Assembly: GCA_011033025.1 (NCBI GenBank) | Contig: WFMF01000014.1 | Span: 558,001 to 622,000 of the forward strand | Length of the DNA stretch: 64,000 bases | Source: Beroe forskalii | Taxonomy: Eukaryota > Ctenophora > Nuda > Beroida > Beroidae | Direction: 5' to 3' | Shown here: positions 21,025-64,000 of the stretch, one piece after another | Layout of the letters: every line of letters begins with the position of its first letter | Position numbering within the stretch: the first letter of the stretch is position 1 | Position numbers and translations under genes: made by a program | The notes under the pieces: model-generated | What the model was told of the DNA's origin: nothing | Database searches by the model: none | Seen by the model: only the letters and a program-made list of their open reading frames with translations

Positions 21025-21079
21025 GCCTGATACACTGCCCCAGCATATATACATACCCCCCGTTATTGCAGATCTAGAT

Positions 21080-26384: not shown

Positions 26385-26746
26385 ACTTCTCATAGACATT
26401 GTCAAACATTAAAACGGCATTATCACCCTCCCATCACAGCCCGAGCAGTAAAGTAGCAAAACCAAGTCTCAGCGGGAAACAATCATCCCGAAATCACATG
26501 GATGCAGAAAAACTAAAAACTAAATTTATTATTTCCAATGCATTATCACACATTTAAACGGTATAATCACACATTCAAACGGCATTATCACACATTCGAA
26601 TGGATATCGGATAAATATCGATTTAGAAACTACTGAAATCAAACAATTGCGAAAAAGAGGCGTTCAATTCGGACGAGGGTCTCAGAACTGTCACGGCCGA
26701 GTTTGGGGGGTTGAAAAGATAACACCCACTGATTCCTACCTCCTGT
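26385..26746 (-). other. Intron of inverted caprin copy, homologous to 61660-62040
   Basis: The reverse complement matches 61660-62040 closely (AATTGTTTGATTTCAGTAGT, GTGTGATAATGCCGTTT). Adjoining the acceptor at 26375 it carries only one copy of the 40-bp unit (GACAATGTCTATGAGAAGTC) that is amplified about 50-fold at 61990-64000. Confidence 0.8.
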
Positions 26747-43800: not shown

Positions 43801-46800
43801 CTGTTTAGTAACCCCTCCCCCTCCTCAGCAACGTTCGGTGAATTCTCACAGGAGGAGGCAGATGACAACGCTTCAGAGGAAGATGCCGAACAGGTTAACA
43901 ACTGAGCACCACAACTTTAGATAAATTATTATTAGTACAGCTCTCATTTTTGTGCCTTTTGATTTCTCCTCTGGTCATGCTCAAATGGGCGGGGGCGCCA
44001 GCTGTTTCTTTTGTTATATAGTAAATGTATTGTGTGCTATTATACTCAGTGTATTAGAAATTGGCGGATTTTCGACAGCCTATTACATATCATGTGATCT
44101 CTTCACATGTGATACTAAATGGACCAATCAGATGGTTGCATCTGACATAGGTGATATTTTATACAATCAACTGATTTGTCCATTTGGTATCACACGCTAA
44201 GGAGATCACGTTGGAAATCCGCCAATTTCTAATACGCGGAGTATAATATTATATTTCTGCACATTGCCAGCCCCACCATGGGTTTCACAACAACAGCTGC
44301 TTTTCAAAAAATTAAAAACATAAAATTAAAAAATGCAACATAAAAATCAGCATAAAAAACCAAAAAATACGAAATAAATGTAAACAAACAAAAGAGGAAA
44401 TTAAATATAGATATAATTCAACTTTTTTTCTTGAGGTGAGGTGAGTTGCACACTTATTTCCCTGGGCTGTGAAAAAGTCCCAGGTACTTCTTTTGGTTTA
44501 AGGGGATCTGAGTGGTTTGTGACCCTCCAAGTGCCCCCTGACGTAACCACACCAGGTCACCGACTCCCAGCATACCATTCCCGACCTGGCCAGGGCAGTA
44601 ATCCCTTGCGGAATTAAAAAAAATAGAAAGTCAGGATCTATCTAGAGTAGTTCGTCTAGAGTAGTTTTAGATCTAGGTCAACTGTTCTTATTCTCTTAAA
44701 TTGATACGCATTTACAGAGACATAAGTGGCCTGGTAGGTTGGAAAATTCGACAAATGGCCACATAGGGGCCTGGGGGATGAAGCTCAGAAAAACCAACTT
44801 TTCCGATTATTGGGCTAGTTTTTTTTGTTTGTTTTTTTGGGTTACATTTCGGTAATTTCTCTAACACCTTTCCTTTTTAGGTTAAAATTAATTCAAATTC
44901 AATTTGAACAAATTAAGACATTTTTGGGCTGCGCAACAGCAGAATGCTGGCCAACAGGTTATCTGATATCGGTATATGCTACCACCGTTCAGCAGTTATT
45001 CAGCCTGCATACTTGGAGATAAAAGATTTCTTAAGTTTAGTCTTGAAGGACACCTTCGTTGGACACATTTTTAAGAAATTACTACTTATTATTATATTAT
45101 GTAGATTGCTAACTTATAGTACACTAGCAGGTCCGTTGGGCCTGCAAATGCACAGCTCACTTGACGCTGCTATGCAACACCTTGCTGGCACATTTCAAAC
45201 CCAACAATTCAAATTAATTATTTTTTACCGCATCAAAATCCCAATCAGATCAATAGTTATATTGAGCAGCGAAATCAAAACAGCATGAAACAGAAATGAA
45301 CACACACGCAATTAATCTGCACGTGCATTTTTCCCATGGCGCGCATTGCTCTGGGGCGGGACGTACAAAAACACAATTTGCGACTTTATGAGTACTACTA
45401 GAAGGGGGATGGGCCAGCGAGGGCCCAGGCGGCGCCCAGGAGAGGAAGCAACTGGCCGACTTTATGAGTAAGAAACCTTACAAGACAAAATAACTTGGGA
45501 CAATAATTCCGGGGATCGAAATTTTGGGGGTTCGAAAATATGGGAATTTTTTTTCAAAAATCCCCAAATTTCGCACCCCAAATTAAATTAGGGGACTTTC
45601 GCCATTTTACAATTTCGAAAAAATAAGGTTACTTTTGGGAATAAATCAGAACTTCAGAAAGGCCAATATCACTGAGGTGATTGATATAATAGAATTTCCA
45701 GTACAGGATCCCTTTTATCGAGTCGAGTGAAGTAGGTTTTATTTGGAATGACTGCATATTAGATATTTTGAACTCTTCTGCACTAATATACTTATTGAAA
45801 TTTGTCTGGTAATTCCTCGCCTGGTGATGCCTGGCACGTCGCTTGGAAGGGTCTATCATCGATAGACAAGGAATTTCATACGTTATGCCCTGTTAGTCAA
45901 ACCCGCAATTAACTAATTTGGGGAAATAATTTTGGTGATCGAAATTTTGGGGGTACAAAAATATGGGGATTTTTTTCGAAAGATCCCCTAATTTCGTATC
46001 TTTTAAATATGTCTCGTAAGGTACATGTTTTATGAACAGTTTTAAGCCGTAGTAACGGTGCGCACCTTCTGCAAAGTTATAATATTTACTGTCAAGGCTT
46101 TGAAGGCATTATTAACAGTAGGTGTGTACCCGTCCTACGGATGGTAACTGATGGAATGCGCATTGGTATGCAAGTGATAATTTTAACGGTTGGATTATGC
46201 AGGTCCCTGCTGCTCCCACTGCAGTTGTTGATGAAGGAGTCGAGAAGGATCCTGCCGTCATGGCGTGGTCTGCTGGTCCCCCCACCCCTCCCATACAGGA
46301 GCAGCACATCCAGCTGGAGATACAGCCCGAACAAACTGAGGTAGGTCCCCCCTCCCATACAGGAGCAGCACATCCAGCTGGAGATACAGCTTGAACAAAC
46401 TGATGGGTCCCCCACCCCTCCCATACAGGAGCAGCACATCCAGCTGGAGATACAGCCCGAACAAACTGAGGTAGGTCCCCCCACCCTCCAGTACAGGAGC
46501 AGCACATCCAGCTGGAGATACAGCCCGAACAAACTGAGGTAGGTCCCCACCCTCCCATACAGGAACAGCAAATTGAGGTAGGTCCCCCACCTCCCATACA
46601 GGAGCAGCACATCCAGCTGGAGATACAGCCCGAACAAACTGAGGTAGGTCCCCCACCCTCCAATACAGGAGCAGCACATCCAGCTGGAGATACAGCCTCG
46701 AACAAACTGAGGTAGGTCCCCACCCTCCCATACAGGAGCAGCACATCCAGCTGGAGATACAGCCCGAACAAACTGAGGTAGGTCCCCCACCCTCCAATAC

Positions 46801-49800
46801 AGAGCAGCCTGTGAGCTCCATCATACTACGCTAGGGTCATAATTGCGGGCAATCCCGTGTGTAGGAGGCTCTGCGGTCTGCCTATATAAGCATCTCAATA
46901 TTTAGTTTTTAGCCCGTGTATCCAAAATAGAAACAATATGTGCTCCCTTAATTTACCTGCCCCAGTGATAGAATGCTACACTAATACCTATCCTTAATCC
47001 TACTACTTCAAGGTTTTGGTATTTTGTGCCCAAAAAGTTTTATCAAGCTTACCTACATCAAAAATCACTAACTTGTGTGAAGTTAAGTTTTTCTTGCAAT
47101 CCAGATAATTTCATATGAAAATGACACAAGATCATTGGGCAAAGCCACAAACAGAGATATGGCCTCTTTTTATGGGCTAAAATGGTTAGATTACATATCC
47201 AATTCACTTGCACGGGGAAATGTTGCATGGTCTATAATGCTATAATGGACTCAAGGCCACCCTCAAATTGTAGTACCTGTTATTGGAGCTCAACAACAAT
47301 AATAAAATCAATTAAAAAACAATTCTAATTTTATTGAATCCACAGTTCACACTCACTCTTTATAATTGATAATTGGCATAAATTGGGTATAAATCACTGA
47401 TAATCAGTGATTTATTATCGTTGTTGAACTCCAATTGATAGTTCATGGAGTGGGATATTGCATTTGCAGATCTTTTTTCTTGCAAACATCTTATGTCCAT
47501 GGAAATACGACTTGAACTTCGGCCATTTTCAGAACTTTGCCTGCGGCCAAAATTTCTGAAGCCTAAATCAATCCCAGTTTATTTCATAGCGCTGTCCTTG
47601 TTGACTTAAATTGGTTTGCAGTCGCCAAAATTTCAACCAACTGTCAAGTTAAAAAATTGTTAGAATTCAAAAAAATTAATGAATTATAAATCCTGAAAAT
47701 TGAAATTTGGCAATTTTCTACCGTTTCTGAAGTTTTTTAGTTATTATTTCAAGAATATGAATTTAATCATGATTTTGAACTATCATTCAGATTTCGGACA
47801 ATATGTTTTGCAATCAGACTTCGGCCTATCAACTGCCGAAGTTAAATTGCTGAAAATTTGTCCAACTTTCATGATCAAATTCATCATCAAAGCCGAATTT
47901 GCCTTTTCATGACCGAAGCCGATGTCAGGACCTAATAAAGTAATAGCTTCGGCTTGATCTTCAAGTGGCCAAAATATTAATTTCGGTCGTTTCATACCTT
48001 CAATGTTTTTTTTCCAATATTTTGATTTTTGGATGTAGAAAGATACTGTAGCTTAAATAGAATGATTCCCAAATTTTAAATCCTCTTGTAGGAGACTTAA
48101 TTAACCAAAATCGTGTTTTTGGACTATAAAAAAACAAAATATTTACACGATATATAACGGGCCTGATTAATTGTTTTTGATGCTGATTATGATTTTATTA
48201 TTAGTGTATTATTTTGACGAGGATCTTGGCAATGAAAGGATGACTCTTATAAACATTATATAAGAATTATGTTTTTTTGTATTTTTTTGTATTTTTTTGT
48301 ATTTTTATGTCCAAAGTGTACCCTATTTTTCAAAATTGGACAAAAAATTGTTGGACAAAAAAATACAAAAAAATACAAATAAAACATGATCCCCCCCCTA
48401 AATATCCCCGGCAGTGTGGCCCCTACTAATTATATCCCCGGCAGTGTGGCCCCTTCTAATTACATCCCCGGCAGTGTGGCCCCTACTAATTATATCCCCG
48501 GCAGTGTGGCCCCTTCTAATTATATCCCCGGCAGTGTGGCCCCTTCTAATTACATCCCCGGCAGTGTGGCCCTTCTAATTACATCCCCGGCAGTGTGGCC
48601 CCTTCTAATTATATCCCCGGCAGTGTGGCCCCTACTAATTATATCCCCGGCAGTGTGGCCCCTACTAATTATATCCCCGGCAGTGTGGCCCCTTCTAATT
48701 ATATCCCCGGCAGTGTGGCCCCTACTAATTATATCCCCGGCAGTGTGGCCCTTCTAATTATATATATCCCCGGCAGTGTGGCCCCTTCTAATTATATCCC
48801 CGGCAGTGTGGCCCCTTCTAATTACATCCCCGGCAGTGTGGCCCCTTCTAATTACATCCCCGGCAGTGTGGCCCCTACTAATTACATCCCCGGCAGTGTG
48901 GCCCCTACTAATTATATCCCCGGCAGTGTGGCCCCTTCTAATTATATCCCCGGTAGTGTGGCCCCTTCTAATTACATCCCCGGCAGTGTGGCCCTTCTAA
49001 TTATATCCCCGGCAGTGTGGCCCTTCTAATTATATCCCCGGCAGTGTGGCCCCTGCTAATTATATCCCCGGCAGTGTGGCCCCTTCTAATTATATCCCCG
49101 GCAGTGTGGCCCCTTCTAATTAAATCCCCGGCAGTGTGGCCCCTTCTAATTACATCCCCGGCAGTGTGGCCCCTTCTAATTATATCCCCGGCAGTGTGGC
49201 CCCTACTAATTATATCCCCGGCAGTGTGGCCCCTTCTAATGATATCCCCCGGCAGTGTGGCCCCTTCAATTATATCCCCGGCAGTGTGGCCCCTACTAAT
49301 TACATCCCCGGCAGTGTGGCCCTACTAATTATATCCCCGGCAGTGTGGCCCCTACTAATTATATCCCCGGGCAGTGTGGCCCTTCTAATTATATCCCCGG
49401 CAGTGTGGCCCCTACTAATTATATCCCCGGCAGTGTGGCCCCTACTAATTATATCCCCGGCAGTGGCCCCTTCTAATTACATCCCCCGGCAGTGTGGCCC
49501 CTTCTAATTATATCCCCGGCAGTGTGGCCCCTTCTAATTATATCCCCGGCAGTGTGGCCCCTACTAATTATATCCCCGGCAGTGTGGCCCCTACTAATTA
49601 TATCCCCGGCAGTGTGGCCCCTTCTAATTATATCCCCGGCAGTGTGGCCCCTTCTAATTACATCCCCGGCAGTGTGGCCCCTTCTAATTATATCCCCGGC
49701 AGTGTGGCCCCTTCTAATTATATCCCCGGCAGTGTGGCCCCTACTAATTACATCCCCGGCAGTGTGGCCCCTTCTAATTACATCCCCGGCAGTGTGGCCC

Positions 49801-52800
49801 CTTCTAATTATATCCCCGGCAGTGTGGCTCCTTCTAATTATATCCCCGGCAGTGTGGCCCCTACTAATTATATCACCGGCAGTGTGGCCCCTACTAATTA
49901 CATCCCCGGCAGTGTGGCCCCTTCTAATCACATCCTAATCACAGCGTTCCTGGATTGCAAGGACAAGGAGGCATGGGAAGGCACCAAGTACTCTGATATC
50001 TGCGGAATATTCGAGAAGCTTCACGAGCACCACGTCTTCGACCCGGACTACTCGCCCCCACTTGTGGTAAGGTTACAGCAAATCAGTCTGTTAAACTACT
50101 GTCCCAATACTGCACACACAATCAGTTAATCATCGGTTCATGATAAGTTTATGATATTTGGTATTCTTTCTGAAACTATTTCCGAATATATTATGTGCAT
50201 GGAAATTGTCCTACCCAGATCTTTTAGAACGTAATCTTTGAATTTGGGATTGCGTTGGTGCCTGTATAACACATGTGTCGCCACTTCGAGGAATGAGATT
50301 CATTCTGAAATTTCCGATCGCTTGCCTCCATAAACCTACATGGTGGTTTTGTGGAAATTTCAGACACCAATCTCAGATGCGGCGACAATTTAGTGAAAAC
50401 CTCGGCTTAGAGAAAATATTGGCTATTAGGACATCTACATCTCTGCTGAACTGACGGCTGATGAAAGGAAGAAACGGAAGGCGGTTGTTGCTGTTCTCAG
50501 GTTGTTGCTGTTCTCAAGGAACAAATACGCATTCTGAAACCTGATGAGGGATTCCCGGGGACACAGTGATTGAGGGTGGGCATCTGTACCAGAAACGAGG
50601 TTGTGGATAACAAATCCCAAGCTGAAGTAATACAAGGAAGGCAAGGAGGAAGTGGACACTGATGCTGGCTCAGTGGATAACTTTTTTTTCGCAGAAATTA
50701 AAGTTTCGAATTTCCCCTCCAAATTCGCACGGTCAAATCACTGTCAAAGAGACATGTGGCCGTTAGCTCATGCGGCTGCCATCATTCGCCGTCCGTAGGA
50801 CGGGAACCGACTAGTTGTTGTTGTTGTTGTTTTTTTTTTTGTTTTGTTTTTTTTAACCTCAGTGTCCCAAAATCACTATCAGATCTCAGATGGCCACAAA
50901 CTGACCGCACAGAAGCACAACCCCTGTCAGCAACTAAGAGTGCTCTAGCATCAGAGGTTATGCTCCCCGCGGAGCAGCGTGGGAATGGCCAGGAGCCACC
51001 CATCTCAAAAGTGGTGATTTTTGAATAGGACAAAGAGTATTCCATGCTACCACCACACTCGAGGCCCGGGCTGGGGCCATGTCATCAAGACTAAGTCTAG
51101 TTAACACGGTGTTAGCGGCACTGCAAGAACAGAGGTGGGCAACCTGCATGGAGATACTCTTGCAACATAAAATATAAGAGAACTCACCCAGAAAAATGGA
51201 ATCAAAAAGAAAATGAATAATGTATTAATGTACTAGTTGTTTTAATAGGAATTAACAAAACGGCTCAATGTTTTAGGAGGAAGAGCCCGAGGAAGAAGAA
51301 GTAGAGGAGGAGGAGGAGGAGGAGGAGGTCCCTGAAACTGCACCGGAGACTGGCATATTGGAGGCTCCCACCAGCGAGAATGAAGTGGACGAACCATGTG
51401 AGCCTGTGAGTTGACCCCAGCCCGTCTGATACAATCCTATGTGCTTAACTTGGACACTTCGTCTGGAAATGAACTGGTTATGGTTTCTTGACTCAATATA
51501 CGTGTGACAAGGTTCAAGCTGTTGTGCAATCCCTCAGTACCCTTGTCAATCCATTACATGCTGACCCTTATTATATCTCTATGTGCCTGCACCCTATCAG
51601 GTTCCTGAAGAAGAGACCGCCCTGCTAAATGGAGACATCTCCGCTCCCACCGCTACCAGTCCCAACCCTCCCACCCCCCAAGAGGACGCCCTGGTGAACT
51701 TCATGCACGACTCCCAGCTGGACAGGTCGGAGAGTCAGCTGTCTCCCCACGCACCAGAGTTCCAGCCTGCATCTAGTCCTGATCTTCTCACTGACAAGGG
51801 TATGTGACTCTTCATTTCAAAAGCTTTCTAATTCTTAACAATGGGGAGTGAGCAATGGACATGCGAGAGAAAAGCTTTTCAAATAAGTGATATTGTATCG
51901 ATTTGTATCTATCCCTAGCCAAAGTTGAGTAGGCCTTTCGAGGTTCATAAAATTTCTCATCGGAATTTGTTAGTTCCAGTGATAACAATCAAATTTATTA
52001 GGGGGGGAGGGGGAAGAAAATATGTTCAAATAGTGGTGAACAGCACCCCTTCACAAAAGTTGCAAACTATTCCCCATAGGGAAGATGGGAGGATAAGGCC
52101 CAGAGTGAGAATAAATTTCTTTTTACCAGCAAAAATTTTCAAAAATTTTGAGTAGTGATGGGATTTTGAATTGTCATCTCTTTTTGAGATGTTCTATGTG
52201 ACTTGAAAACAAAACTAGGAAATCATTCACTTTTCTGAGATTATCTTCTCTTCTCCAGAAGCAGTTCAAAAGTTTACCTAAAGAGCAGTTTTAACCGTCG
52301 TGTTCATATCATGGGTCTTACAGTAAAGAATGCCTTAAAACCACTGCGGACCATCACACCTTTTAAGTTTTTGGAAAAAGTGAACTATTTTAACATTCAC
52401 AACTTAACAACAAAATCAAACGAGTTGATTGCTGAATGATACCAATGCTCCATTACACATTAAGATGTTAGATCCTTCGACGTTCTGTCATATATACATC
52501 CTGTATAATGAAATAGAAATATAAAATGTAGGGTGAAAAACTAGAATAGGGTGGTTTCAACTGCTTAATCTCGACGAAAAATCAGTCTTTATACCTATTA
52601 AACTGCTACAAATTAACGAAAAATAACTAAAAATGTGTAAAAGTACCCTATCATAAATAATTACTGATTACAAAATTACGAAATATAAATTATCATTAAA
52701 TTTTAATTTTAACATTCACGAATATATACAAATAACCAGTGACAAAATCTGATGCAAAATGTATCAACAAAATGGCGTGAAATCTACAGTGAAGTGAGAC

Positions 52801-55449
52801 CAGCAACTTGGTGCGAAATGGCACGTGCCAAATGCCAATGTGCATTCCCCTTGGTTCTGTGCACAGCATCTAAGCAATATTTATACTCTTACTAGGACCG
52901 CGTGATGTACCAGTATGTAACATCAAGCACCGTGGGGAGGGTAATTAAGCACCTGCATACGGGAACAACAGATAAACAAGAATTGTGCCGGCATTGTACC
53001 TGGCTTGCTGAGGTCGTGCACAAATGGAGGTGTGAATGTGTCACTATCAAGCTTCACACTGTAGCGCAGATGTCACCTGAGAACACCTTCTGAAATTTCC
53101 ACATGACTATCTCGGGTATTTGTGAATGATTTTCATTCCTCGACCTCGAGATATCTGTTTAGTAACCCCTCCCCCTCCTCAGCAACGTTCGGTGAATTCT
53201 CGCAGGAGGATGCAGATGACAACGCTTCAGAGGAAGATGCCGATCAGGTTAACAACTGAGCTCCACAACTTCAGATAAATTATTATTAGTACAACTCTCA
53301 TTTTTGTGTCTTTTGATTACTCCTCTGGTCATGCTCAAATGGGCGGGGGCGCCATCTGTTTCTTTTGTTATATAGTAAATGTATTGTGTGCTATTATACT
53401 CAGTGTATTAGAAATTGGTGGATTGCTCGGATTTTCGACAGCCTATTACATATCATGTGATCTCTTCACATGTGATACTAAATGGACCAATCAGATGGTT
53501 GCATCTGACATAGGTGATATTTTATACAATCAACTGATTTGTCCATTTGGTATCACACTAAGGAGATCACGTTGGAAATCCGGGCAATCCGCCAATTTCT
53601 AATACGCGGAGTATAAAATTATATTTCTGCACATTGCCAGCCCCACCGTGGGTTTCACAACAACAGCTGCTTTTGAAAAAATTAAAAACATAAAATTAAA
53701 AAATGCCACATAAAAATCAGCATAAAAAACCAAAAAATACGAAATAAATGTAAACAAACAAAAGAGGAAATTAAATATAGATATAATTCAACTTTCTTTT
53801 TCTTGAGGTGAGGTGAGTTGCACACTTATTTCCCTGGGCTGTGAAAAGTCCCTGGGACTTCTTGGAGGTTTAAGGAGGGGATCTGAGTGGTTTGTGACCC
53901 TCCAAGTGCCCCCTGACGTGTAACCACACCAGGTCACCGACTCCCAGCATACCATTCCCGACCTGGCCAGGGCAGTAATCCCTTGCGGAATTAAAAAAAA
54001 TAGAAAGTCAGGATCTATCTAAAGTAGTTCGTCGAAAAATTTTAGGTCTAAGTCAACTGTTCTTATTCTCTTATTGATACGCATTTACAGAGACATGAGT
54101 GGCCTGGTAGGTTGTAAAATTCGACAAATGGCCACATAGGGGCCTGGGGGATGAAGCTCAGAAAAACCAACTTTTCCGATTATTGGGCTAGTTTTTTTTG
54201 TTTGTTTTTTTGGGTTACATTTCGGTAATTTCTCTAACACCTTTCCTTTTTAGGTTAAAATTAATTCAAATTCAAATTCAAACTGATTTATTTCATAGTT
54301 TATAATCAGCATTTGTTCAAATATATCATGTGCCTCATTCCGTAAAGATGCATTTTAAACAACAAAAAGGAACGTTTAGTAATGAGGGGTGGGAGGTGAA
54401 TGGACGCAATTTGAACAAATTAAGACATTTTTGGGCTGCGCAACAGCAGAATGCTGGCCAACAGGTTACCTGATATCGGTATATGCTACCATCGTTCAGC
54501 AGTTATTCAGCCTGCATACTTGGAGATAAAAGATTTCTTAAGTTTAGTCTGGAACGACACCTTCGTTGGACACATTTTTAAGAAATTACTGCTTATGTAG
54601 ATTGCTAACTTATAGTACACTAGCAGGTCCGTTGGGCCTGCAAATACACAGCTCACTTGACGCTGCTATGCAACACCTTGCTGGCACATTTCAAACCCAA
54701 CAATTCAAATTAATTATTTTTTACCGCATCAAAAATTCCATTCAGATCAATAGTTATACCGAGCAACGTCATCAAAACAGCATTAAACAGAAATGGACAC
54801 GCCCGCAATTAATCTGCACGTGCATTTTTCCCATGGCGCGCATTGCTCTGGGGCGGGACGTACAAAAACACAATTTGCGACTTTATGAGTACTACTAGAA
54901 GGGGGATGGGCCAGCGAGGGCCCAGGCGGCGCCCAGGAGAGGAAGCAACTGGCCGACTTTATGAGTAAGAAACCTTACAAGACAAAATAACATCGGACAA
55001 TAATTCCGGGGATCGAAATTTTGGGGGTTCGAAAATAAGGGAATTTTTTTCCCAAATTTTTCCCCCATTAAATTTTCGTATCTTTTAAATATGTTTTAAG
55101 CCGTTTAAGGTTCAAAATATTTATTTAAACAGTTTTAAGCCGTAAACCTTCTGCAAAGGAATGCTTTAATAATATTTACATATCTGCTGTCAAGGCTTTG
55201 AAGGCATTATTAACAGTAGGTGTGTACCCGTCCTACTAAAAAATATAACTGATGGAATGCGCATTGGTATGCAAGTGATAATTTTAACGGTTGGATTATG
55301 CAGGTCCCCCCTGAGGTAGGTTCTATACTGCAGTTGTTGATGAAGGAGTCGAGAAGGATCCTGCCGTCATGGCGTGGTCTGCTGGTCCCCCCACCCCTCC
55401 CATACAGGAGCAGCACATCCAGCTGGAGATACAGCCCGAACAAACTGAG
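28656..55449 (+). CDS. Caprin-family RNA-binding protein, internal part, with duplicated exons
   Basis: Exons in order: HR1 pieces (28656-28811, 32029-32146, 38316-38437 or its copy 49945-50066), an acidic exon (51277-51405), an exon with the conserved NFMHDSQLD motif (compare NFIQDSMLD of vertebrate caprin-1), a short acidic exon, and an exon ending in EQHIQLEIQPEQTE. Caprins are cytoplasmic proteins of ribonucleoprotein granules that bind RNA through RGG repeats and dimerise through HR1. All exon phases fit. The 5' HR1 exons are absent, and the 3' NPW and RGG exons are seen only on the - strand at 24643-26374. Exons C, E, F and H occur twice. Copy 1 lacks the acidic exon; copy 2 has an altered start of the last exon. 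The full transcript structure is therefore uncertain. Confidence 0.85.
28920..29145 (+). repeat. About 103-bp tandem duplication
   Basis: The block from TTCTAATTATGTATACGC to ACACTATACATGATTACA occurs twice in a row (from about 28929 and about 29032), and a third partial start follows at about 29135. It ends where the LINE 3' end begins. Confidence 0.75.
29134..31510 (-). mobile_element. LINE (L1/Tx1-like) fragment, reverse transcriptase and C-terminus, broken
   Basis: On the - strand the reverse transcriptase core reads KLKNNKSPGWDGLSAEFYKE, LLPKPKNP...IKNWRPITLLN, LLQVDLEKAFDSVEHRFL, GLHQGSPLSP and, after a frame change near 30600, FADDTDIF (the catalytic YADD-type box). A C-terminal CLKCN...ETLQHILIQCPHT knuckle is at about 29150-29240. 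The endonuclease and ORF1 are missing, so the copy is 5' truncated at about 31510. It has a frame change near 30600 and further breaks. It sits in a caprin intron, antisense to the gene. No clear target duplication was found. Confidence 0.88.
31520..32028 (+). repeat. 34-bp acceptor-side minisatellite with CRE palindromes
   Basis: 15 units of ACCCTATGATAATGACGTCA then TCAATTCACTAAAT. Twelve keep the full palindrome TGACGTCA, the binding site of CREB/ATF factors in animals. The last unit runs AATGACGTCACTTCAG into caprin exon B, so the splice acceptor lies inside a repeat unit. Confidence 0.9.
32029..32146 (+). CDS. Caprin exon B: HR1 domain
   Basis: Reads TLTEEELKTLDGFYALTDTS then ARFSELEEQLESATNHVT plus one base. 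It matches the caprin segment LSEEEL.LLD.FY.L........L..Q...A..H. Acceptor CTTCAG, donor CAG|GTTAGT. The exon end is the seed of the next array. Confidence 0.88.
32117..33015 (+). repeat. 58-bp donor-side minisatellite copied from the exon B end
   Basis: Fifteen intronic units each contain GAGTCAGCCACAAACCACGT TACAG|GTTAGTT, i.e. the last 25 or so bases of exon B (ESATNHVT) with an intact donor, plus about 30 bp of intron (CTAACTTACTGTTACTGATT). Units are over 90 percent alike by eye. The last unit degrades to CATTACAAATT and passes straight into the next array. Confidence 0.92.
33016..38315 (+). repeat. 30-bp minisatellite on the acceptor side of caprin exon C, about 180 units
   Basis: Unit TCTAATTATATCCCCGGCAG TGTGGCCCCT with 29-bp and shorter variants. 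The array ends ...CTTATCACATCCTAATCACAG|CG, the exon C acceptor, so the terminal unit grades into the splice site. Each unit also carries a pyrimidine tract plus GGCAG, a weak acceptor. Shortened units are much commoner in the middle (about 34150-37100) than at the ends. Open frames with NYIPGSVAPS repeats reflect the 30-bp period and are not taken as genes. Confidence 0.92.
38316..38437 (+). CDS. Caprin exon C, copy 1: end of HR1
   Basis: Completes Ala and reads FLDCKDKEAWEGTKYSDICG then IFEKLHEHHVFDPDYSPPLV. It corresponds to the caprin segment LL.GK.K...GTTY..L.EI.E.......FD. Acceptor ATCACAG, donor GTGAGG. Confidence 0.87.
38438..39373. other. Caprin intron, copy 1, with SINE-like tail
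   Basis: Matches 50067-51025 in copy 2. Around 39090-39185 a short palindrome CCGTCCGTAGGACGG is followed by (TTG)n and a T run, which resembles a SINE end. The open frames here are unrecognised. No exon is assigned. Confidence 0.45.
39374..42367. mobile_element. 3.0-kb foldback element with about 720-bp inverted arms
   Basis: The left arm (39374-40092, starting GAAATTAAAATCGAAAATAA) and right arm (41646-42367, ending TTATTTTCGATTTTAATTTC) are inverted copies of each other with scattered differences. The 1.55-kb centre (40093-41645) has no recognised gene. No clear target duplication was found. Compared with copy 2 the element occupies the place of the acidic caprin exon and its upstream intron. 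Confidence 0.8.
42583..42781 (+). CDS. Caprin exon E, copy 1
   Basis: Reads VPEEETALLNGDISAPTATS, then PNPPTPQEDALVNFMHDSQL and SSPDLLTDK plus one base. ALVNFMHDSQLD corresponds to the conserved caprin YNFIQDSMLD motif. Acceptor CTATCAG, donor GTATGT. Nearly identical to 51601-51799. Confidence 0.85.
42782..43828. other. Caprin intron E-F, copy 1
   Basis: No gene seen. It matches 51800-53182 in copy 2 except for a long G run at about 43575-43590 (short in copy 2) and the absence of a 319-bp insertion. Confidence 0.5.
43829..43893 (+). CDS. Caprin exon F, copy 1
   Basis: Short acidic exon: (A)TFGEFSQEEADDNASEEDAE Q, phase 0 at its end. Acceptor CTCCTCAG, donor GTTAAC. The second copy differs at a few residues (EDAD for EEAD, ADQ for AEQ). 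Confidence 0.8.
44041..44245. mobile_element. MITE-like hairpin, copy 1
   Basis: Ends TATACTC...GAGTATA with inverted arms GTATTAGAAATTGGCGGATT and AATCCGCCAATTTCTAATAC. 205 bp. The ends are compatible with a TA-targeting element. Copy 2 at 53395-53615 is 221 bp. Confidence 0.75.
44246..46202. other. Caprin intron, copy 1; possible tiny exon
   Basis: Matches 53616-55333 with indels. A Gln-rich reading ending at 44957 (AAQQQNAGQQ before GTTATC) is preserved in copy 2 (before 54465) and could be a short exon, but I cannot place its acceptor. Two similar blocks (GGGATCGAAATTTTGGGGGT) at about 45513 and 45928 bracket sequence that is absent from copy 2. Confidence 0.35.
46203..46340 (+). CDS. 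Caprin exon H, copy 1, source of the cassette array
   Basis: 46 codons in phase 0: VPAAPTAVVDEGVEKDPAVM, AWSAGPPTPPIQ, then EQHIQLEIQPEQTE, donor GTAGGT. The proline stretch GPPTPPIQ is encoded by the same pyrimidine-rich bases (ending CCCATACAG) that form an acceptor-like site in the repeats. In this exon they are probably coding; in every later unit they could be a 3' splice site. Confidence 0.8.
46263..46830 (+). repeat. Exon-cassette array, copy 1, about 8 units
   Basis: Seven units with a full cassette plus one internally deleted unit (about 46548-46586). Same 68-bp unit as at 55380-61665. The array ends in a partial GAGCAGCCTGTGAGCTCC. Confidence 0.88.
46831..48390. other. Spacer between the two caprin segment copies; no gene
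   Basis: AT-rich and present once. At about 48270-48385 a GTATTTTTTT-rich arm and its complement AAAAAAATAC can form a long A/T hairpin just before the next minisatellite. No coding match. Confidence 0.5.
48400..49944 (+). repeat. 30-bp minisatellite before caprin exon C, copy 2, about 51 units
   Basis: Same unit as 33016-38315, but far more regular: long stretches hold exact 30-bp spacing. It ends TAATCACATCCTAATCACAG at the exon C acceptor. Copy number is roughly 3.5 times lower than in copy 1. Confidence 0.92.
49945..50066 (+). CDS. Caprin exon C, copy 2
   Basis: Encodes the same 41 residues as 38316-38437 with only silent changes seen (e.g. GCA for GCC as the final base differs in the Lys-Glu-Ala-Trp stretch). 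Donor GTAAGG instead of GTGAGG, slightly stronger. Confidence 0.87.
50067..51276. other. Caprin intron C-D, copy 2
   Basis: Matches copy 1 up to about 51025, including the palindrome CCGTCCGTAGGACGG and a TTG/T-rich tail at 50814-50854. From about 51030 to the exon D acceptor the sequence has no counterpart in copy 1, where the foldback element lies. No other gene. Confidence 0.5.
51277..51405 (+). CDS. Caprin exon D: acidic, copy 2 only
   Basis: 43 codons in phase 0, starting EEEPEEEEVEEEEEEEE and then VPETAPETGILEAP...EPCEP. Caprin-1 also has an acidic run after HR1. Acceptor TGTTTTAG, donor GTGAGT. In copy 1 only the final ACCATGTGAGCCT|GTGAGT survives (from about 42375). Confidence 0.85.
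51601..51799 (+). CDS. Caprin exon E, copy 2
   Basis: Same 66 codons plus one base as 42583-42781, including ALVNFMHDSQLD. Phase and splice sites are intact. Confidence 0.86.
51800..53182. other. Caprin intron E-F, copy 2
   Basis: No gene. It contains a 319-bp block absent from copy 1 (see separate entry). Otherwise it is close to 42782-43828. Confidence 0.5.
52401..52719. mobile_element. 319-bp insertion with 14-bp direct repeats
   Basis: ATTTTAACATTCAC occurs at 52387-52400 and again at 52706-52719, and only once at the matching place in copy 1. The block between is AT-rich with no coding match. This is the signature of a SINE- or MITE-like insertion, or of a deletion between direct repeats in copy 1. 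Confidence 0.65.
53183..53247 (+). CDS. Caprin exon F, copy 2
   Basis: Acidic exon (A)TFGEFSQEDADDNASEEDAD Q. Acceptor CTCCTCAG, donor GTTAAC. Compatible in phase with exon E of either copy. Confidence 0.8.
53395..53615. mobile_element. MITE-like hairpin, copy 2
   Basis: Same element as 44041-44245 but with an extra 9 bases in each arm (GCTCGGATT on the left, GGGCAATCC on the right). The two extra pieces are near-complementary, so the hairpin is longer but still paired. Confidence 0.75.
53616..55333. other. Caprin intron, copy 2
   Basis: No gene. It has about 140 bp (roughly 54270-54415) not found in copy 1 and lacks the block at about 45560-45990 of copy 1. The sequence just before exon H (from GTCCCCCTGAGGTAGGT) looks like a piece of the cassette repeat. 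Confidence 0.45.
55334..55449 (+). CDS. Caprin exon H, copy 2, altered start
   Basis: Reads VDEGVEKDPAVMAWSAGPPT then PPIQEQHIQLEIQPEQTE, donor GTAGGT. The first 22 bases seen in copy 1 are replaced by a fragment containing TGAGGTAGGT. The nearest acceptor (ATACTGCAG at 55333) would enter in a different phase from copy 1, so the frame to exon F is broken unless another exon intervenes. Confidence 0.65.
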
Positions 55450-58400
55450 GTAGGTCCCCACCCCCCTCCAATACAGGAGCAGCACATCCAGCTGGAGATA
55501 CAGCCCGAACAAACTGAGGTAGGTCCCCCACCCCTCCCATACAGGAGCAGCACATCCAGCTGGAGATACAGCCCGAACAAACTGAGGTAGGTCCCCCACC
55601 CCTCCCATACAGGAGCAGCACATCCAGCTGGAGATACAGCCCGAACAAACTGAGGTAGGTCCCCCACCCCTCCAATACAGGAGCAGCACATCCAGCTGGA
55701 GATACAGCCCGAACAAACTGAGGTAGGTCCCCCACCCCTCCCATACAGGAGCAGCACATCCAGCTGGAGATACAGCCCGAACAAACTGAGGTAGGTCCCC
55801 CACCCCTCCAATACAGGAGCAGCACATCCAGCTGGAGATACAGCCCGAACAAACTGAGGTAGGTCCCCACCCCAGCTGGAGACATACAGCCCGAACAAAC
55901 TGAGGTAGGTCCCCCACCCCCTCCCATACAGGAGCAGCACATCCAGCTGGAGATACAGCCCGAACAAACTGAGGTAGGTCCCCCCACCCCTCCCATACAG
56001 GAGCAGCACATCCAGCTGGAGATACAGCCCGAACAAACTGAGGTAGGTCCCCCACCCCTCCCATACAGGAGCAGCACATCCAGCTGGAGATACAGCCCGA
56101 ACAAACTGAGGTAGGTCCCCCCACCCCTCCCATACAGGAGCAGCACATCCAGCTGGAGATACAGCCCGAACAAACTGAGGTAGGTCCCCCACCCCTCCCA
56201 TACAGGAGCAGCACATCCAGCTGGAGATACAGCCCGAACAAACTGAGGTAGGTCCCCCCACCCCTCCCATACAGGAGCAGCACATCCAGCTGGAGATACA
56301 GCCCGAACAAACTGAGGTAGGTCCCCCACCCCTCCCATACAGGAGCAGCACATCCAGCTGGAGATACAGCCCGAACAAACTGAGGTAGGTCCCCCACCCC
56401 TCCCATACAGGAGCAGCACATCCAGCTGGAGATACAGCCCGAACAAACTGAGGTAGGTCCCCCACCCCTCCCATACAGGAGCAGCACATCCAGCTGGAGA
56501 TACAGCCCGAACAAACTGAGGTAGGTCCCCCACCCCTCCCATACAGGAGCAGCACATCCAGCTGGAGATACAGCCCGAACAAACTGAGGTAGGTCCCCCA
56601 CCCCTCCCATACAGGAGCAGCACATCCAGCTGGAGATACAGCCCGAACAAACTGAGGTAGGTCCCCCACCCCTCCCATACAGGAGCAGCACATCCAGCTG
56701 GAGATACAGCCCGAACAAACTGAGGTAGGTCCCCCACCCCCTCCCATACAGGAGCAGCACATCCAGCTGGAGATACAGCCCGAACAAACTGAGGTAGGTC
56801 CCCCACCCCTCCCATACAGGAGCAGCACATCCAGCTGGAGATACAGCCCGAACAAACTGAGGTAGGTCCCCCACCCCTCCCCATACAGGAGCAGCACATC
56901 CAGCTGGAGATACAGCCCGAACAAACTGAGGTAGGTCCCCCCACCCCTCCCATACAGGAGCAGCACATCCAGCTGGAGATACAGCCCGAACAAACTGAGG
57001 TAGGTCCCCCCACCCTCCCATACAGGAGCAGCACATCCAGCTGGAGATACAGCCCGAACAAACTGAGGTAGGTCCCCCCACCCCTCCCATACAGGAGCAG
57101 CACATCCAGCTGGAGATACAGCCCGAACAAACTGAGGTAGGTCCCTTCACCCCTCCCATACAGGAGCAGCACATCCAGCTGGAGATACAGCCCGAACAAA
57201 CTGAGGTAGGTCCCCCACCCCTCCCATACAGGAGCAGCACATCCAGCTGGAGATACAGCCCGAACAAACTGAGGTAGGTCCCCCACCCCTCCCATACAGG
57301 AGCAGCACATCCAGCTGGAGATACAGCCCGAACAAACTGAGGTAGGTCCCCCACCCCTCCCATACAGGAGCAGCACATCCAGCTGGAGATACAGCCCGAA
57401 CAAACTGAGGTAGGTCCCCCACCCCTCCAATACAGGAGCAGCACATCCAGCTGGAGATACAGCCCGAACAAACTGAGGTAGGTCCCCCACCCCTCCCATA
57501 CAGGAGCAGCACATCCAGCTGGAGATACAGCCCGAACAAACTGAGGTAGGTCCCCCACCCCTCCCATACAGGAGCAGCACATCCAGCTGGAGATACAGCC
57601 CGAACAAACTGAGGTAGGTCCCCCACCCCTCCAATACAGGAGCAGCACATCCAGCTGGAGATACACATCCAACTGGAGATACAGCCCGAACAAACTGAGG
57701 TAGGTCCCCCACCCCTCCCATACAGGAGCAGCACATCCAGCTGGAGATACAGCCCGAACAAACTGAGGTAGGTCCCCCACCCCTCCCATACAGGAGCAGC
57801 ACATCCAGCTGGAGATACAGCCCGAATAAACTGAGGTAGGTCCCCCACCCTCCCATACAGGAGCAGCATCCAGCTGGAGATACAGCCCGAACAAACTGAG
57901 GTAGGTCCCCCACCCCTCCCATACAGGAGCAGCACATCCAGCTGGAGATACAGCCCGAACAAACTGAGGTAGGTCCCCCCACCCCTCCCATACAGGAGCA
58001 GCACATCCAGCTGGAGATACAGCCCGAACAAACTGAGGTAGGTCCCCCACCCCTCCCATACAGGAGCAGCACATCCAGCTGGAGATACAGCCCGAACAAA
58101 CTGAGGTAGGTCCCCCACCCCTCCCATACAGGAGCAGCACATCCAGCTGGAGATACAGCCCGAACAAACTGAGGTAGGTCCCCCACCCCTCCCATACAGG
58201 AGCAGCACATCCAGCTGGAGATACAGCCCGAACAAACTGAGGTAGGTCCCCCACCCCTCCCATACAGGAGCAGCACATCAGCTGGAGATACAGCCCGAAC
58301 AAACTGAGGTAGGTCCCCCACCCCTCCCATACAGGAGCAGCACATCCAGCTGGAGATACATCCAACAAACTGGAGGTCCCCCACCCTCCCATACAGGAGC

Positions 58401-61400
58401 AGCACATCCAGCTGGAGATACAGCCCGAACAAACTGAGGTAGGTCCCCCACCCCTCCAATACAGGAGCAGCACATCCAGCTGGAGATACAGCCCGAACAA
58501 ACTGAGGTAGGTCCCCCACCCCTCCCATACAGGAGCAGCACATCCAGCTGGAGATACAGCCCGAACAAACTGAGGTAGGTCCCCCACCCCTCCCATACAG
58601 GAGCAGCACATCCAGCTGGAGATACAGCCCGAACAAACTGAGGTAGGTCCCCCCACCCCTCCAATACAGGAGCAGCACATCCAGCTGGAGATACAGCCCG
58701 AACAAACTGAGGTAGGTCCCCCACCCCTCCAATACAGGAGCAGCACATCCAGCTGGAGATACAGCCCGAACAAACTGAGGTAGGTCCCCCACCCCTCCAA
58801 TACAGGAGCAGCACATCCAGCTGGAGATACAGCCCGAACAAACTGAGGTAGGTCCCCCACCCCTCCCATACAGGAGCAGCACATCCAGCTGGAGATACAG
58901 CCCGAACAAACTGAGGTAGGTCCCCCACCCCTCCCATACAGGAGCAGCACATCCAGCTGGAGATACAGCCCGAACAAACTGAGGTAGGTCCCCCACCCCT
59001 CCCATACAGGAGCAGCACATCCAGCTGGAGATACAGCCCGAACAAACTGAGGTAGGTCCCCCACCCCTCCAGTACAGGAGCAGCACATCCAGCTGGAGAT
59101 ACAGCCCGAACAAACTGAGTGTAGGTCCCCCACCCCTCCAATACAGGAGCAGCACATCCAGCTGGAGATACAGCCCGAACAAACTGAGGTAGGTCCCCCC
59201 ACCCCTCCAATACAGGAGCAGCACATCCAGCTGGAGATACAGCCCGAACAAACTGAGGTAGGTCCCCCACCCCTCCCATACAGGAGCAGCACATCCAGCT
59301 GGAGATACAGCCCGAACAAACTGAGGTAGGTCCCCCACCCCTCCCATACAGGAGCAGCACATCCAGCTGGAGATACAGCCCGAACAAACTGAGGTAGGTC
59401 CCCCACCCCTCCCATACAGGAGCAGCACATCCAGCTGGAGATACAGCCCGAACAAACTGAGGTAGGTCCCCCACCCCTCCCATACAGGAGCAGCACATCC
59501 AGCTGGAGATACAGCCCGAACAAACTGAGGTAGGTCCCCCACCCCTCCCATACAGGAGCAGCACATCCAGCTGGAGATACAGCCCGAACAAACTGAGGTA
59601 GGTCCCCCACCCCTCCCATACAGGAGCAGCACATCCAGCTGGAGATACAGCCCGAACAAACTGAGGTAGGTCCCCCACCCCTCCCATACAGGAGCAGCAC
59701 ATCCAGCTGGAGATACAGCCCGAACAAACTGAGGTAGGTCCCCACACCCCTCCCATACAGGAGCAGCACATCCAGCTGGAGATACAGCCCGAACAAACTG
59801 AGGTAGATCCCCCCTCCAATACAGGAGCAGCACATCCAGCTGGAGATACAGCCCGAACAAACTGAGGTAGGTCCCCCACCCCTCCAGTAGAGAAGCAGCA
59901 CATCCAGCTGGAGATACAGCCCGAACAAACTGAGGTAGGTCCCCCACCCCTCCAATACAGGAGCAGCACATCCAGCTGGAGATACAGCCCGAACAAACTG
60001 AGGTAGGTCCCCCACCCCTCCCATACAGGAGCAGCACATCCAGCTGGAGATACAGCCCGAACAAACTGAGGTAGGTCCCCCACCCCTCCCATACAGGAGC
60101 AGCACATCCAGCTGGAGATACAGCCCGAACAAACTGAGGTAGGTCCCCCACCCCTCCCATACAGGAGCAGCACATCCAGCTGGAGATACAGCCCGAACAA
60201 ACTGAGGTAGGTCCCCCACCCCTCCCATACAGGAGCAGCACATCCAGCTGGAGATACAGCCCGAACAAACTGAGGTAGGTCCCCCACCCTCCCATACAGG
60301 AGCAGCACATCCAGCTGGAGATACAGCCCGAACAAACTGAGGTAGGTCCCCCACCCCTCCCATACAGGAGCAGCACATCCAGCTGGAGATACAGCCCGAA
60401 CAAACTGAGGTAGGTCCCCCCACCCCTCCCATACAGGAGCAGCACATCCAGCTGGAGATACAGCCCGAACAAACTGAGGTAGGTCCCCCACCCCTCCAGT
60501 ACAGGAGCAGCACATCCAGCTGGAGATACAGCCCGAACAAACTGAGGTAGGTCCCCCCACCCCTCCCATACAGGAGCAGCACATCCAGCTGGAGATACAG
60601 CCCGAACAAACTGAGGTAGGTCCCCCACCCCTCCCATACAGGAGCAGCACATCCAGCTGGAGATACAGCCCGAACAAACTGAGGTAGGTCCCCCACCCCT
60701 CCCATACAGGAGCAGCACATCCAGCTGGAGATACAGCCCGAACAAACTGAGGTAGGTCCCCCACCCCTCCCATACAGGAGCAGCACATCCAGCTGGAGAT
60801 ACAGCCCGAACAAACTGAGGTAGGTCCCCCACCCCTCCCATACAGGAGCAGCACATCCAGCTGGAGATACAGCCCGAACAAACTGAGGTAGGTCCCCCCA
60901 CCCCTCCCATACAGGAGCAGCACATCCAGCTGGAGATACAGCCCGAACAAACTGAGGTAGGTCCCCCCACCCCTCCCATACAGGAGCAGCACATCCAGCT
61001 GGAGATACAGCCCGAACAAACTGAGGTAGGTCCCCCACCCCTCCCATACAGGAGCAGCACATCCAGCTGGAGATACAGCCCGAACAAACTGAGGTAGGTC
61101 CCCCACCCCTCCCATACAGGAGCAGCACATCCAGCTGGAGATACAGCCCGAACAAACTGAGGTAGGTCCCCCACCCCTCCCATACAGGAGCAGCACATCC
61201 AGCTGGAGATACAGCCCGAACAAACTGAGGTAGGTCCCCCACCCCTCCAATACAGGAGCAGCACATCCAGCTGGAGATACAGCCCGAACAAACTGAGGTA
61301 GGTCCCCCACCCCTCCCATACAGGAGCAGCACATCCAGCTGGAGATACAGCCCGAACAAACTGAGGTAGGTCCCCCACCCCTCCCATACAGGAGCAGCAC

Positions 61401-61665
61401 ATCCAGCTGGAGATACAGCCCGAACAAACTGAGGTAGGTCCCCCCACCCCTCCCATACAGGAGCAGCACATCCAGCTGGAGATACAGCCCGAACAAACTG
61501 AGGTAGGTCCCCCACCCCTCCCATACAGGAGCAGCACATCCAGCTGGAGATACAGCCCGAACAAACTGAGGTAGGTCCCCCCCTCCCATACAGGAGCAGC
61601 ACATCCAGCTGGAGATACAGCCCGAACAAACTGAGGTAGGTCCCCCCACCCCTCCAATACAGGAG
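55380..61665 (+). repeat. Giant exon-cassette array: about 92 units of 68 bp
   Basis: Each unit holds a 42-bp cassette (GAGCAGCACATCCAGCTGGA to AACAAACTGAG; 14 codons EQHIQLEIQPEQTE) followed by 26 bp that begins GTAGGT and ends CCCTCCCATACAG. The cassette is flanked by a pyrimidine-rich acceptor and a consensus donor, and is an exact multiple of three. Most units are 68 bp (five Cs after GGT); some have six Cs (69 bp). Read unspliced, a 68-bp unit shifts frame and meets TAG in the second unit. The - strand lacks stops in all frames, giving huge spurious ORFs. It ends with a truncated unit (cassette reduced to GAG) at about 61660. Confidence 0.93.
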
Positions 61666-61989
61666 GTAGGAATGAGTGGGTGTTATCTTCTCAATCCCCC
61701 AAACTCGGGTGACAATTCTGACGACCCTCGTCCGAATTGAACGCCTCTTTTTCGCAATTGTTTGATTTCAGTAGTTTCTATATCGATATTTATCCGATAT
61801 CCATTCGAATGTGTGATAATGCCGTTTGAATGTGTGATTATACCGTTTAAATGTGTGATAATGCATTGGAAATAATAAATTTAGTTTTTAGTTTTTCTGC
61901 ATCCATGTGATTTCGGGATGATTGTTTCCCGCTGAGACTTGGTTACTTTACTGCTCCGGCTATGATGGGGGGTGATAATGCCGTTTTAA
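61666..61989 (+). other. Caprin intron after the array; no gene
   Basis: Unique sequence matching the reverse complement of 26430-26746. It includes three short copies of GTGTGATAATGCCGTTTGAA-like sequence at about 61810-61870. Confidence 0.6.
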
Positions 61990-64000
61990 TGTTTGACAAT
62001 GTCTATGAGAAGTCCCCCTCCCGTTTTAATGTTTGACAATGTCTATGAGAAGTCCCCTCCCGTTTTAATGTTTGACAATGTCTATGAGAAGTCCCCTCCC
62101 GTTTTAATGTTTGACAATGTCTATGAGAAGTCCCCCTCCCGTTTTAATGTTTGACAATGTCTATGAGAAGTCCCCCTCCCGTTTTAAAGTTTGACAATGT
62201 CTATGAGAAGTCCCCCTCCCGTTTTAATGTTTGACAATGTCTATGAGAAGTCCCCCTCCCGTTTTAATGTTTGACAATGTCTATGAGAAGTCCCTCTCCC
62301 GTTTTAATGTTTGACAATGTCTATGAGAAGTCCCTCTCCCGTTTTAATGTTTGACAATGTCTATGAGAAGTCCCCCTCCCGTTTTAATGTTTGACAATGT
62401 CTATGAGAAGTCCCCCTCCCGTTTTAATGTTTGACAATGTCTATGAGAAGTCCCCTCCCGTTTTAATGTTTGACAATGTCTATGAGAAGTCCCCTCCCGT
62501 TTTAATGTTTGACAATGTTTGAAATGTCTATGAGAAGTCCCCTCCCGTTTTAATGTTTGACAATGTCTATGAGAAGTCCCCCTCCCGTTTTAATGTTTGA
62601 CAATGTCTATGAGAAGTCCCCCTCCCGTTTTAATGTTTGACAATGTCTATGAGAAGTCCCCTCCCGTTTTAATGTTTGACAATGTCTATGAGAAGTCCCC
62701 TCCCGTTTTAATGTTTGACAATGTCTATGAGAAGTCCCCTCCCATGAAGTTTGACAATGTCTATGAGAAGTCCCTCTCCCGTTTTAATGTTTGACAATGT
62801 CTATGAGAAGTCCCCTCCCGTTTTAATGTTTGACAATGTCTATGAGAAGTCCCCTCCCGTTTTAATGTTTGACAATGTCTATGAGAAGTCCCCCCTCCCG
62901 TTTTAATGTTTGACAATGTCTATGAGAAGTCCCCTCCCGTTTTAATGTTTGACAATGTCTATGAGAAGTCCCCCTCCCGTTTTAATGTTTGACAATGTCT
63001 ATGAGAAGTCCCCTCCCGTTTTAATGTTTGACAATGTCTATGAGAAGTCCCCTCCCGTTTTAATGTTTGACAATGTCTATGAGAAGTCCCCTCCCGTTTT
63101 AATGTTTGACAATGTCTATGAGAAGTCCCCTCCCGTTTTAATGTTTGACAATGTCTATGAGAAGTCCCTCTCCCGTTTTAATGTTTGACAATGTCTATGA
63201 GAAGTCCCTCCCCTTTTTAATGTTTGACAATGTCTATGAAGTCCCTCCCGTTTTAATGTTTGACAATGTCTATGAGAAGTCCTCTCCCGTTTTAATGTTT
63301 GACAATGTCTATGAGAAGTCCCTCTCCCGTTTTAATGTTTTGACAATGTCTATGAGAAGTCCCCCTCCCGTTTTAATGTTTGACAATGTCTATGAGAAGT
63401 CCCTCCCGTTTTAATGTTTGACAATGTCTATGAGAAGTTTGACAATGTCTATGAAGTCCCCTCCCGTTTTAATGTTTGACAATGTCTATGAAGTCCCCCT
63501 CCCCGTTTTAATGTTTGACAATGTCTATGAGAAGTCCCCTCCGTTTTAATGTTTGACAATGTCTATGAGAAGTCCCTCCCGTTTTAATGTTTGACAATGT
63601 CTATGAGAAGTCCCCTCCCGTTTTAATGTTTGACAATGTCTATGAGAAGTCCCCCTCCTGTTTTAATGGTTTGACAATGTCTATGAGAAGTCCCCTCCCG
63701 TTTTAATGTTTGACAATGTCTATGAGAAGTCCCCCTCCCGTTTTAATGTTTGACAATGTCTATGAGAAGTCCCTCTGAATGTTTTTAATGTTTGACAATG
63801 TCTATGAGAAGTCCCCCTCCCGTTTTAATGTTTGACAATGTCTATGAGAAGTCCCTCTCCCGTTTTAATGTTTGACAATGTCTATGAAGTCCCCTCCCGT
63901 TTTAATGTTTGACAATGTCCCCCCTCCCGTTTTAATGTTTGACAATGTCTATGAGAAGTCCCTCTCCCGTTTTAATGTTTGACAATGTCTATGAGAAGTC
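61990..64000 (+). repeat. 40-bp minisatellite, about 50 units, running off the window
   Basis: Unit CGTTTTAATGTTTGACAATG TCTATGAGAAGTCCCCTCC with C-tract length changes. In the inverted copy a single unit lies directly against the acceptor (TCCCTCCCCAG) of the NPW exon, so here the array most probably fills the acceptor side of the same intron and the exon should lie beyond 64000. Open frames with FDNVYEKS repeats are by-products. Confidence 0.88.

Follow-up and report, generated by a model that had tools for sequence, protein, structure and literature searches.

How is a gene to be spliced when a piece that looks like a complete small exon, with an acceptor-like site before it and a donor behind it, recurs about 92 times in tandem? 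The question is raised by a 68-bp tandem array in a 64,000-nucleotide stretch of DNA (C181:558001-622000, within a 216-Mb assembly; hereafter the window), in which the original prediction saw mini-exons that could be included in any number without loss of frame. We think it probable that the array is instead an extreme case of what has been called a mirage in amphioxus, that is, a minisatellite-like duplication of an exon-intron boundary with units of 10-160 bp, many of them carrying AG/GT (PMC3087553). It would lie in a Caprin-like gene and would be spliced out whole, the first donor being joined to the exon that follows.

Tandem Repeats Finder (TRF) places the array at 55388-61665 of the window, between flanks of non-repeat DNA. 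The predicted copy number of about 92, over some 6.3 kb, is confirmed: aligned to the consensus, the array spans 93 unit lengths of 68 bp, an anchor search finds 91 unit starts (68 bp in 62 of the 91 and 69 bp in 19), and pattern counts give 89 donors of the form GAG/GTAGGTCC and 92 acceptor-like sites (a slash marks a splice junction or a site resembling one). Each unit carries a 42-nt cassette, which reads EQHIQLEIQPEQTE when translated in frame with the upstream exon, and 26 nt separate adjacent cassettes. There are 85 exact copies of the 42-mer, and intact CAG/42 nt/GT cassettes number 84 with unit 1 included; the predicted phase-0 cassette is real. The unit occupies four loci on the contig, which we call copies A, B, C and D, the array in question being that of copy C. 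A similarity search returned 50 places, every one on C181. When the genome was searched for the 42-mer, allowing three mismatches, there were 96 matches on the forward strand and 19 on the reverse, all on C181 among the matches listed. Array length is unstable across the gene copies, at about 8 units in B, 23 in A and 92-93 in C.

The origin of the unit can be read from the exon that it adjoins. It consists of the last 42 nt of a 116-nt coding exon, GTAGGT, and the C-rich exonic stretch lying 5' of those 42 nt; the cassette "acceptor", CCCCTCCCATACAG, is coding sequence of the same exon (PPTPPIQ). Read straight through, the exon gives VVDEGVEKDPAVMAWSAGPPTPPIQEQHIQLEIQPEQTE in phase with both of its neighbours: the preceding exon ends in phase 1 (AAGG/GTATGT), the 116-nt exon passes from phase 1 to phase 0, and the next exon begins in phase 0 at CAG/GAA. 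The exon is identical in copies B and C at 116 of 116 nt, while the adjoining intron differs. The repeats set in at the exon's predicted true 5' splice site, so that the later units, and indeed everything 3' of 55449, are predicted to be intron. The unit thus spans a predicted exon-intron boundary, with the predicted authentic splice site at the array edge, and the array runs on towards a next exon that is seen in copies A and D and not in C. The idea of a complete mini-exon survives in part, since the splice-like sites are there but unit 1 is not free-standing, being the end of the 116-nt exon. Intron birth by duplication of an exonic AGGT, also proposed for this locus, is not supported: the predicted donor already bounds the exon in B and C and the next exon is in phase in A and D, so that the duplicated piece already held the predicted 5' splice site and no new intron is needed.

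The gene body is common to copies B and C, which are mostly 92-96% alike, and the copy C counterpart of the preceding exon lies inside an open reading frame (ORF) at 51565-51804. In copy D the next exon (EPVNPWSKK...) is found at 657844-658034 of the contig; downstream of this exon come an RGG-rich exon and then the last exon, which reads GFDALPLFQARPSSRGPPPW followed by a stop, provided that one G is carried over. At the position of the copy D donor CG/GTAAGG, copy A has CGCAAAAGG. The last part of the window, in copy C, is filled by a 40-bp array that repeats the intron end and continues at C181:622000-622066. The name Caprin-like is offered only as a lead. Comparison with CAPRIN1 gave two collinear BLASTP matches (E 0.043 and 0.086), for which the piece of human sequence used as a query was approximate. 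A genome search with the Pfam family Caprin-1_dimer found nothing, its controls being silent too, and no Caprin match came from a PDB search with one exon or a Pfam search with three exon pieces. The features of this gene and of the other arrays discussed below are collected in Table 1.

Table 1. Exons and tandem arrays described in the text. Positions are those of the window unless a contig (C181) or a separately scanned piece (L009, L031, L032) is named.
Feature	Position	Strand	Remarks
116-nt coding exon, copy C, VVDEGVEKDPAVMAWSAGPPTPPIQEQHIQLEIQPEQTE	55334-55449	+	last 42 nt (55408-55449) are the first cassette copy; open frame, phases fit neighbours, 116/116 identity to copy B
116-nt exon, tandem gene copy B	46225-46340	+	identical in sequence to copy C exon
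Array of about 92 68-bp units, copy C	55450-61665	+	begins at predicted 5' splice site GAG/GTAGGT, ends CAG/GAG/GTAGGAATGAG; TRF, consensus alignment, pattern counts
Copy A array, about 23 units	26740-28304	-	TRF, alignment; upstream exon not found adjoining
Copy B array, about 8 units	46275-46808	+	TRF, alignment
Copy D array	C181:654050-657481		adjoins 100-N gap; error-like sequence
Exon AFLDCKDKEAWEGTKYSDICGIFEKLHEHHVFDPDYSPPLV, copy B	38316-38437	+	Caprin-like by weak local match
Preceding exon, copy B, VPEEETALLNGD...SSPDLLTDK	42583-42781	+	ends AAGG/GTATGT, phase 1; joins 116-nt exon in frame
Next exon, copy A, EPVNPWSKKSTIDWGNSS...	26186-26374	-	CCCTCCCCAG/GAACCAGTG as acceptor; no copy C counterpart found
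40-bp array	61981-64000	+	repeats what in copies A and D immediately precedes the acceptor of the next exon; occupies next-exon position in copy C
30-bp array	33021-38293	+	ends 22 nt before 3' splice site of exon 38316; TRF
38-bp array, Caprin-like gene	L009 3184-3751		runs into last exon's acceptor
KDM5-like, units TTACAG/ATAGCACTAGGTC	7617-7913	+	3' splice site and exon start; TRF to 7859, last copies by eye
KDM5-like, TCCTGTCACCCAG/GTAACA, five copies	8484-8577	+	exon end and 5' splice site
KDM5-like, units of about 60-97 bp	13962-14364	+	exon end and GTGAGC/GTAAGC donor (either form)
KDM5-like, 18-bp GAGAGGGG/GTGAGATACC	15080-16019	+	resembles 5' splice site GAGAG/GTGAGATCCC; unit likeness, TRF array from 15142
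KDM5-like, 27-bp CTTCCCTCTCCCTCTAG...	18703-19778	+	resembles 3' splice site CTTCCCTCTCCCCTGCAG; unit likeness, TRF array to 19772
KDM5-like, 15-bp units	19901-19942	+	begin at 5' splice site
23-bp array at 3' splice site	L031		blind piece
55-bp array, unit ends CTCAG/GTGAG	L032 about 450-6925 (C236:600001-608000)		93 exact motif copies at 704-6917

As we infer site usage, splicing outcome and growth from these features, a piece of 68 or 69 bp, made up of the 3' part of the 116-nt exon and its 5' splice site, would have been duplicated in tandem, and unequal exchange or slippage would have raised the number of copies to about 92. Unit 1 would have stayed the working end of the exon, with the later copies lying beyond the true donor, in the intron; the first donor is predicted to be joined to the next exon and the whole array discarded. 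The cassette acceptor would then have arisen by chance, when pyrimidine-rich coding sequence (PPTPPIQ) was carried into the intron with the copies. Whole-array removal, which the original prediction had listed as an alternative, is the outcome that fits the sequence best, the exon phases agreeing with unit 1 read straight through. There is a precedent in amphioxus, where mirages duplicate splice sites, reportedly without disturbing splicing (PMC3087553, PMC3902484), RT-PCR (reverse transcription followed by PCR) having suggested as much (PMC3087553).

The alternative that survives best, although we hold it to be unlikely, is that the array serves as a store from which distant cassettes are chosen, at least two units being skipped each time, so that transcripts would carry variable counts of in-frame, Glu/Gln-rich repeats of 14 residues. 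Both splice sites are as strong as they were predicted to look: on a matrix derived from a KDM5-like gene in the window, with 19 annotated donors and as many acceptors, the cassette donor scores 8.6 (real local donors 1.9-9.4) and the acceptor 11.1 (real maximum 11.9), a value that none of 908 intronic AGs reaches. Since both score like real sites, inclusion is possible in principle. An intron to the unit after next would measure 94 nt and one to the third unit 162 nt, and if introns must measure at least 118 nt, no more than 29 of the 83 intact cassettes after the first exon end could be joined, or 41 if 94 nt suffices. Intact cassettes do keep the frame, as had been claimed for any number of them; one of the 83, however, holds a stop codon, and several other units carry frame-breaking indels. 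A search of the whole genome for spliced copies, joining either cassette to cassette or the first donor to the next exon, gave no match at up to one mismatch, although the absence of retrocopies says little; at up to two mismatches it gave 102 forward and 17 reverse matches, those listed being the genomic arrays. Amphioxus mirages with AG/GT in many repeats also seem to be normally spliced (PMC3087553, PMC3902484). A stricter version, in which every third or later cassette is sampled at random and gives each transcript its own Glu/Gln-rich repeat length, in a genome whose recurrent tandem amplification of junctions adds splice sites to many genes, strikes us as a shade less likely again.

If the cassettes were selected as coding exons, as the original prediction would have them, their substitutions might be expected to say so, and this was not borne out. 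With copies A, B and C pooled, 10 types of substitution fall in the 42 cassette columns and 10 in the 26 intron columns (Fisher P=0.33). Synonymous changes account for 2 of 10 changed codons, against a chance expectation of 22% (the binomial used 9 changed codons), and there is no clear excess of multiples of three among indels that start in cassette columns (0 of 6 in C, 5 of 8 in A, 2 of 4 in B). The test has low power because most units are identical (the 85 exact 42-mers of copy C), and the later cassettes are without clear coding constraint.

Several points weigh against whole-array removal from a Caprin-like gene. The EPVNP exon was looked for in copy C and not found, the 40-bp array occupying its place, so that the exon to which the first donor would be joined is lacking there in the assembly and copy C may not be a working gene. 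The name of the gene rests on two weak local matches. The cassette acceptor beats 18 of the 19 real local acceptors, and the intron carries more than 80 good pseudo-exons. Raw substitutions are fewer in cassette columns than in intron columns (11 vs 51), which could reflect constraint and would favour the use of distant cassettes; as one shared C-to-A variant makes up 25 of the 51 and others lie within the C-run, we read the difference as slippage and the spread of variants. Finally, polishing may have made the units appear too uniform.

A further, more improbable reading holds that the length of the array is an artefact of assembly and that copies A to D are in part haplotypes placed in tandem. 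The mostly 92-96% likeness of B and C would fit this, as would the difference in array length between two sister CCT genes on contig C558 (described below) and the error-like sequence and 100-N gap (C181:653081-653180) that adjoin copy D; the flanks of the gap are rich in homopolymer-type oddities, which suggests that the assembly near copy D is unpolished. Against it, the array is internally coherent, both of its flanks are non-repeat DNA, and arrays of the unit stand at three other places on the contig.

That the 26-nt gaps themselves are spliced, to yield one long repeat domain, we regard as scarcely credible. Most units do have the GT...AG ends and an open 42-nt frame. Introns of about 25 nt are reported in ciliates (PMC5014332). 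Here, the shortest among 41 introns or gaps measure 118-122 nt, which upholds the prediction that 26 nt is too short, and with the gaps so far below every counted intron, splicing between neighbouring units is unlikely. The count comprises 18 trusted introns of the KDM5-like gene (minimum 122 nt; 3550-7913 was left out because exons seem to be missing there) and 23 gaps between neighbouring profile matches in CCT genes (minimum 118 nt). CCT gaps were counted where neighbouring matches have touching profile positions, with the introns of the two C558 sister copies taken separately; the uncounted pairs are two of 155 and 190 nt (C691), one of 3808 nt (C447) and one that overlaps (C826). In the last (C826:5263-6373, minus strand) the two neighbouring matches overlap with a frame change and without an intron, perhaps owing to an assembly error or to another kind of gene.

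A long protein encoded by the minus strand is equally hard to credit: the ORF at 55213-61767 (-) is open for 2185 codons because the reverse-complement unit is stop-free in all frames, as are 7% of shuffled units, and changes in C-run length shift its frame freely. We reject a spliced-leader ("mini-exon") gene array, as the array continues a coding exon; a 68-bp unit would also be too small for a spliced-leader RNA with an Sm site. Searches with 27 exact cassette bases against viral contigs and with 42 back-translated cassette bases against GTDB genomes gave no match.

Canestro 2002 is reportedly the reference cited for amphioxus mirages. Two haplotypes of the globin gene BflGb6 have 3 and 6 mirage units (PMC3087553), and PGBD5, Adh and TnC are further amphioxus cases (PMC3902484). 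Like those of Adh3, BflGb6/BflGb9, PGBD5 and TnC, the present array spans a boundary, is unstable in length and has the authentic boundary at its edge; amphioxus mirages, too, lie at 5' or 3' splice sites, often with AG/GT in their repeats. The differences are of number, about 92 copies (6.3 kb) here vs 3 and 6 units in BflGb6 and 2-7 in PGBD5, and of content, each unit here having a donor and an acceptor-like site around a phase-0 cassette, unlike the amphioxus units. The minisatellite of the human gene 6-16/G1P3 likewise multiplies a 5' splice site by tandem repetition; a report in NAR (Nucleic Acids Research) in 1995, cited in PMC2572611, reportedly describes, to go by its title, multiple splice donor sites used in transcripts, and its unit is said to be of about 12 bp with a donor only. 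In human duplicated genes, which there belong to segmental duplications, boundary minisatellites can form novel introns; those repeats average four units of 30 bp and are backed by transcripts, whereas the array here has far more copies and is known by sequence (PMC2812944). The RdRp gene of potato has a tandem duplication crossing an intron-exon boundary (PMC4974935), and there, as in a review of such events (PMC3443670) and in our array, tandem duplication places pairs of splice sites in a coding gene; unlike in potato, an existing donor was here duplicated into an existing intron and no new intron position is needed. Our searches of the open-access literature, as far as its papers were accessible, turned up neither a boundary array made of tens of complete cassettes nor any mirage from a non-bilaterian animal.

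The array is not alone in its position, for ten more lie on splice junctions of exons that are, or look, coding. Six are on or at junctions of the KDM5-like gene (2400-21025, plus strand), whose JmjC domain was identified by Pfam and whose other domains we take to be those of KDM5. Of its 20 placed exons, 19 have an open frame and the last ends in a stop. The sites are the 3' splice sites before 7914 and 19779 and the 5' splice sites after 8496, 14006, 15079 and 19901; the assignments at 15079 and 19779 rest on unit likeness because the TRF arrays stop 6-62 nt away. An intron of this gene also holds an intronless glycosyltransferase gene with a ricin-type lectin-like stretch (10696-12240). A TTCTAAT motif resembling a branch point recurs in the arrays at 9121-9176 and 33021-38293, which lie 10-22 nt before 3' splice sites. 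A seventh junction array, the 38-bp one of Table 1, belongs to the Caprin-like gene itself. A CCT gene on C558 (L050 2594-2717) has four 31-bp units, hence four TTTCAG, at a 3' splice site, where its near-identical sister copy (L052) is nearly unexpanded, with one unit and one TTTCAG (gap 237 nt vs 123 nt). A blind sample of six 8-kb pieces included two with junction arrays (L031 and L032). The L031 exon presumably belongs to an SLC22-like transporter and the exon after the L032 array is, we assume, EGF-like, both by resemblance; the L032 array starts within error-like sequence next to a gap.

The tandem-repeat content is 38% in the window and 1-87% in the six blind pieces. Among arrays in trusted introns, 8 of 15 overlap junctions vs 3.1 expected under uniform seeding (P=0.0026), in a post hoc test with intron lengths and overlaps set by hand; the figures are 7 of 14 (P=0.007) with the copy C array removed and 6 of 15 (P=0.057) by strict TRF coordinates. 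The test covers the arrays other than 22 TRF rows of the uncertain stretch 3550-7913 (which include the array at 7617), one degenerate duplication (13596-13660), the 30-bp array (its upstream exon not being placed), three two-copy rows in CCT introns, and L031 and L032. Purging of arrays inside exons, together with short introns, explains part of the excess. The notion that minisatellites of this genome generally carry splice motifs was not supported: in a test of motifs only, among 59 TRF rows, several of which represent one 68-bp or 55-bp family, donor motifs reached P<=0.1 in 12 and acceptor motifs in 3. As most rows lack a splice motif and only one array in the scanned CCT loci lies on a junction, the habit is recurrent, not universal.

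The animal itself is probably not a cephalochordate. In cephalochordate mitochondria AGA and AGG are read otherwise than as arginine, whereas AGA/AGG as arginine and TGA as sense belong to the mitochondrial code of non-bilaterian animals. In a COX1 gene on contig C1134, 5 of 7 AGA/AGG codons fall at arginines of PDB chain 7o37_a (aligned by eye) and TGA reads through; with AGA/AGG at conserved arginines, the host is probably not an amphioxus. This COX1 (L053) is of mitochondrial type, AT-rich and divergent; its arginines are written only AGA/AGG, with no CGN in the 500 codons read, and TGA is sense. The match of a CCT beta exon to solved CCT beta chains is good but far from perfect; that the host is a ctenophore is our guess.

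Our literature searches found boundary minisatellites described in amphioxus and in duplicated genes of humans; these observations suggest that a further animal genome, probably a non-bilaterian one, has them as well, at both 5' and 3' splice sites. The two CCT sisters, with four units and one, give a before-and-after view of how such an array starts. The 68-bp array, at the other extreme, puts the choice of splice sites to a natural test, since it confronts a spliceosome with some 90 near-identical donors and some 90 acceptor-like sites lying only a few dozen bases apart.

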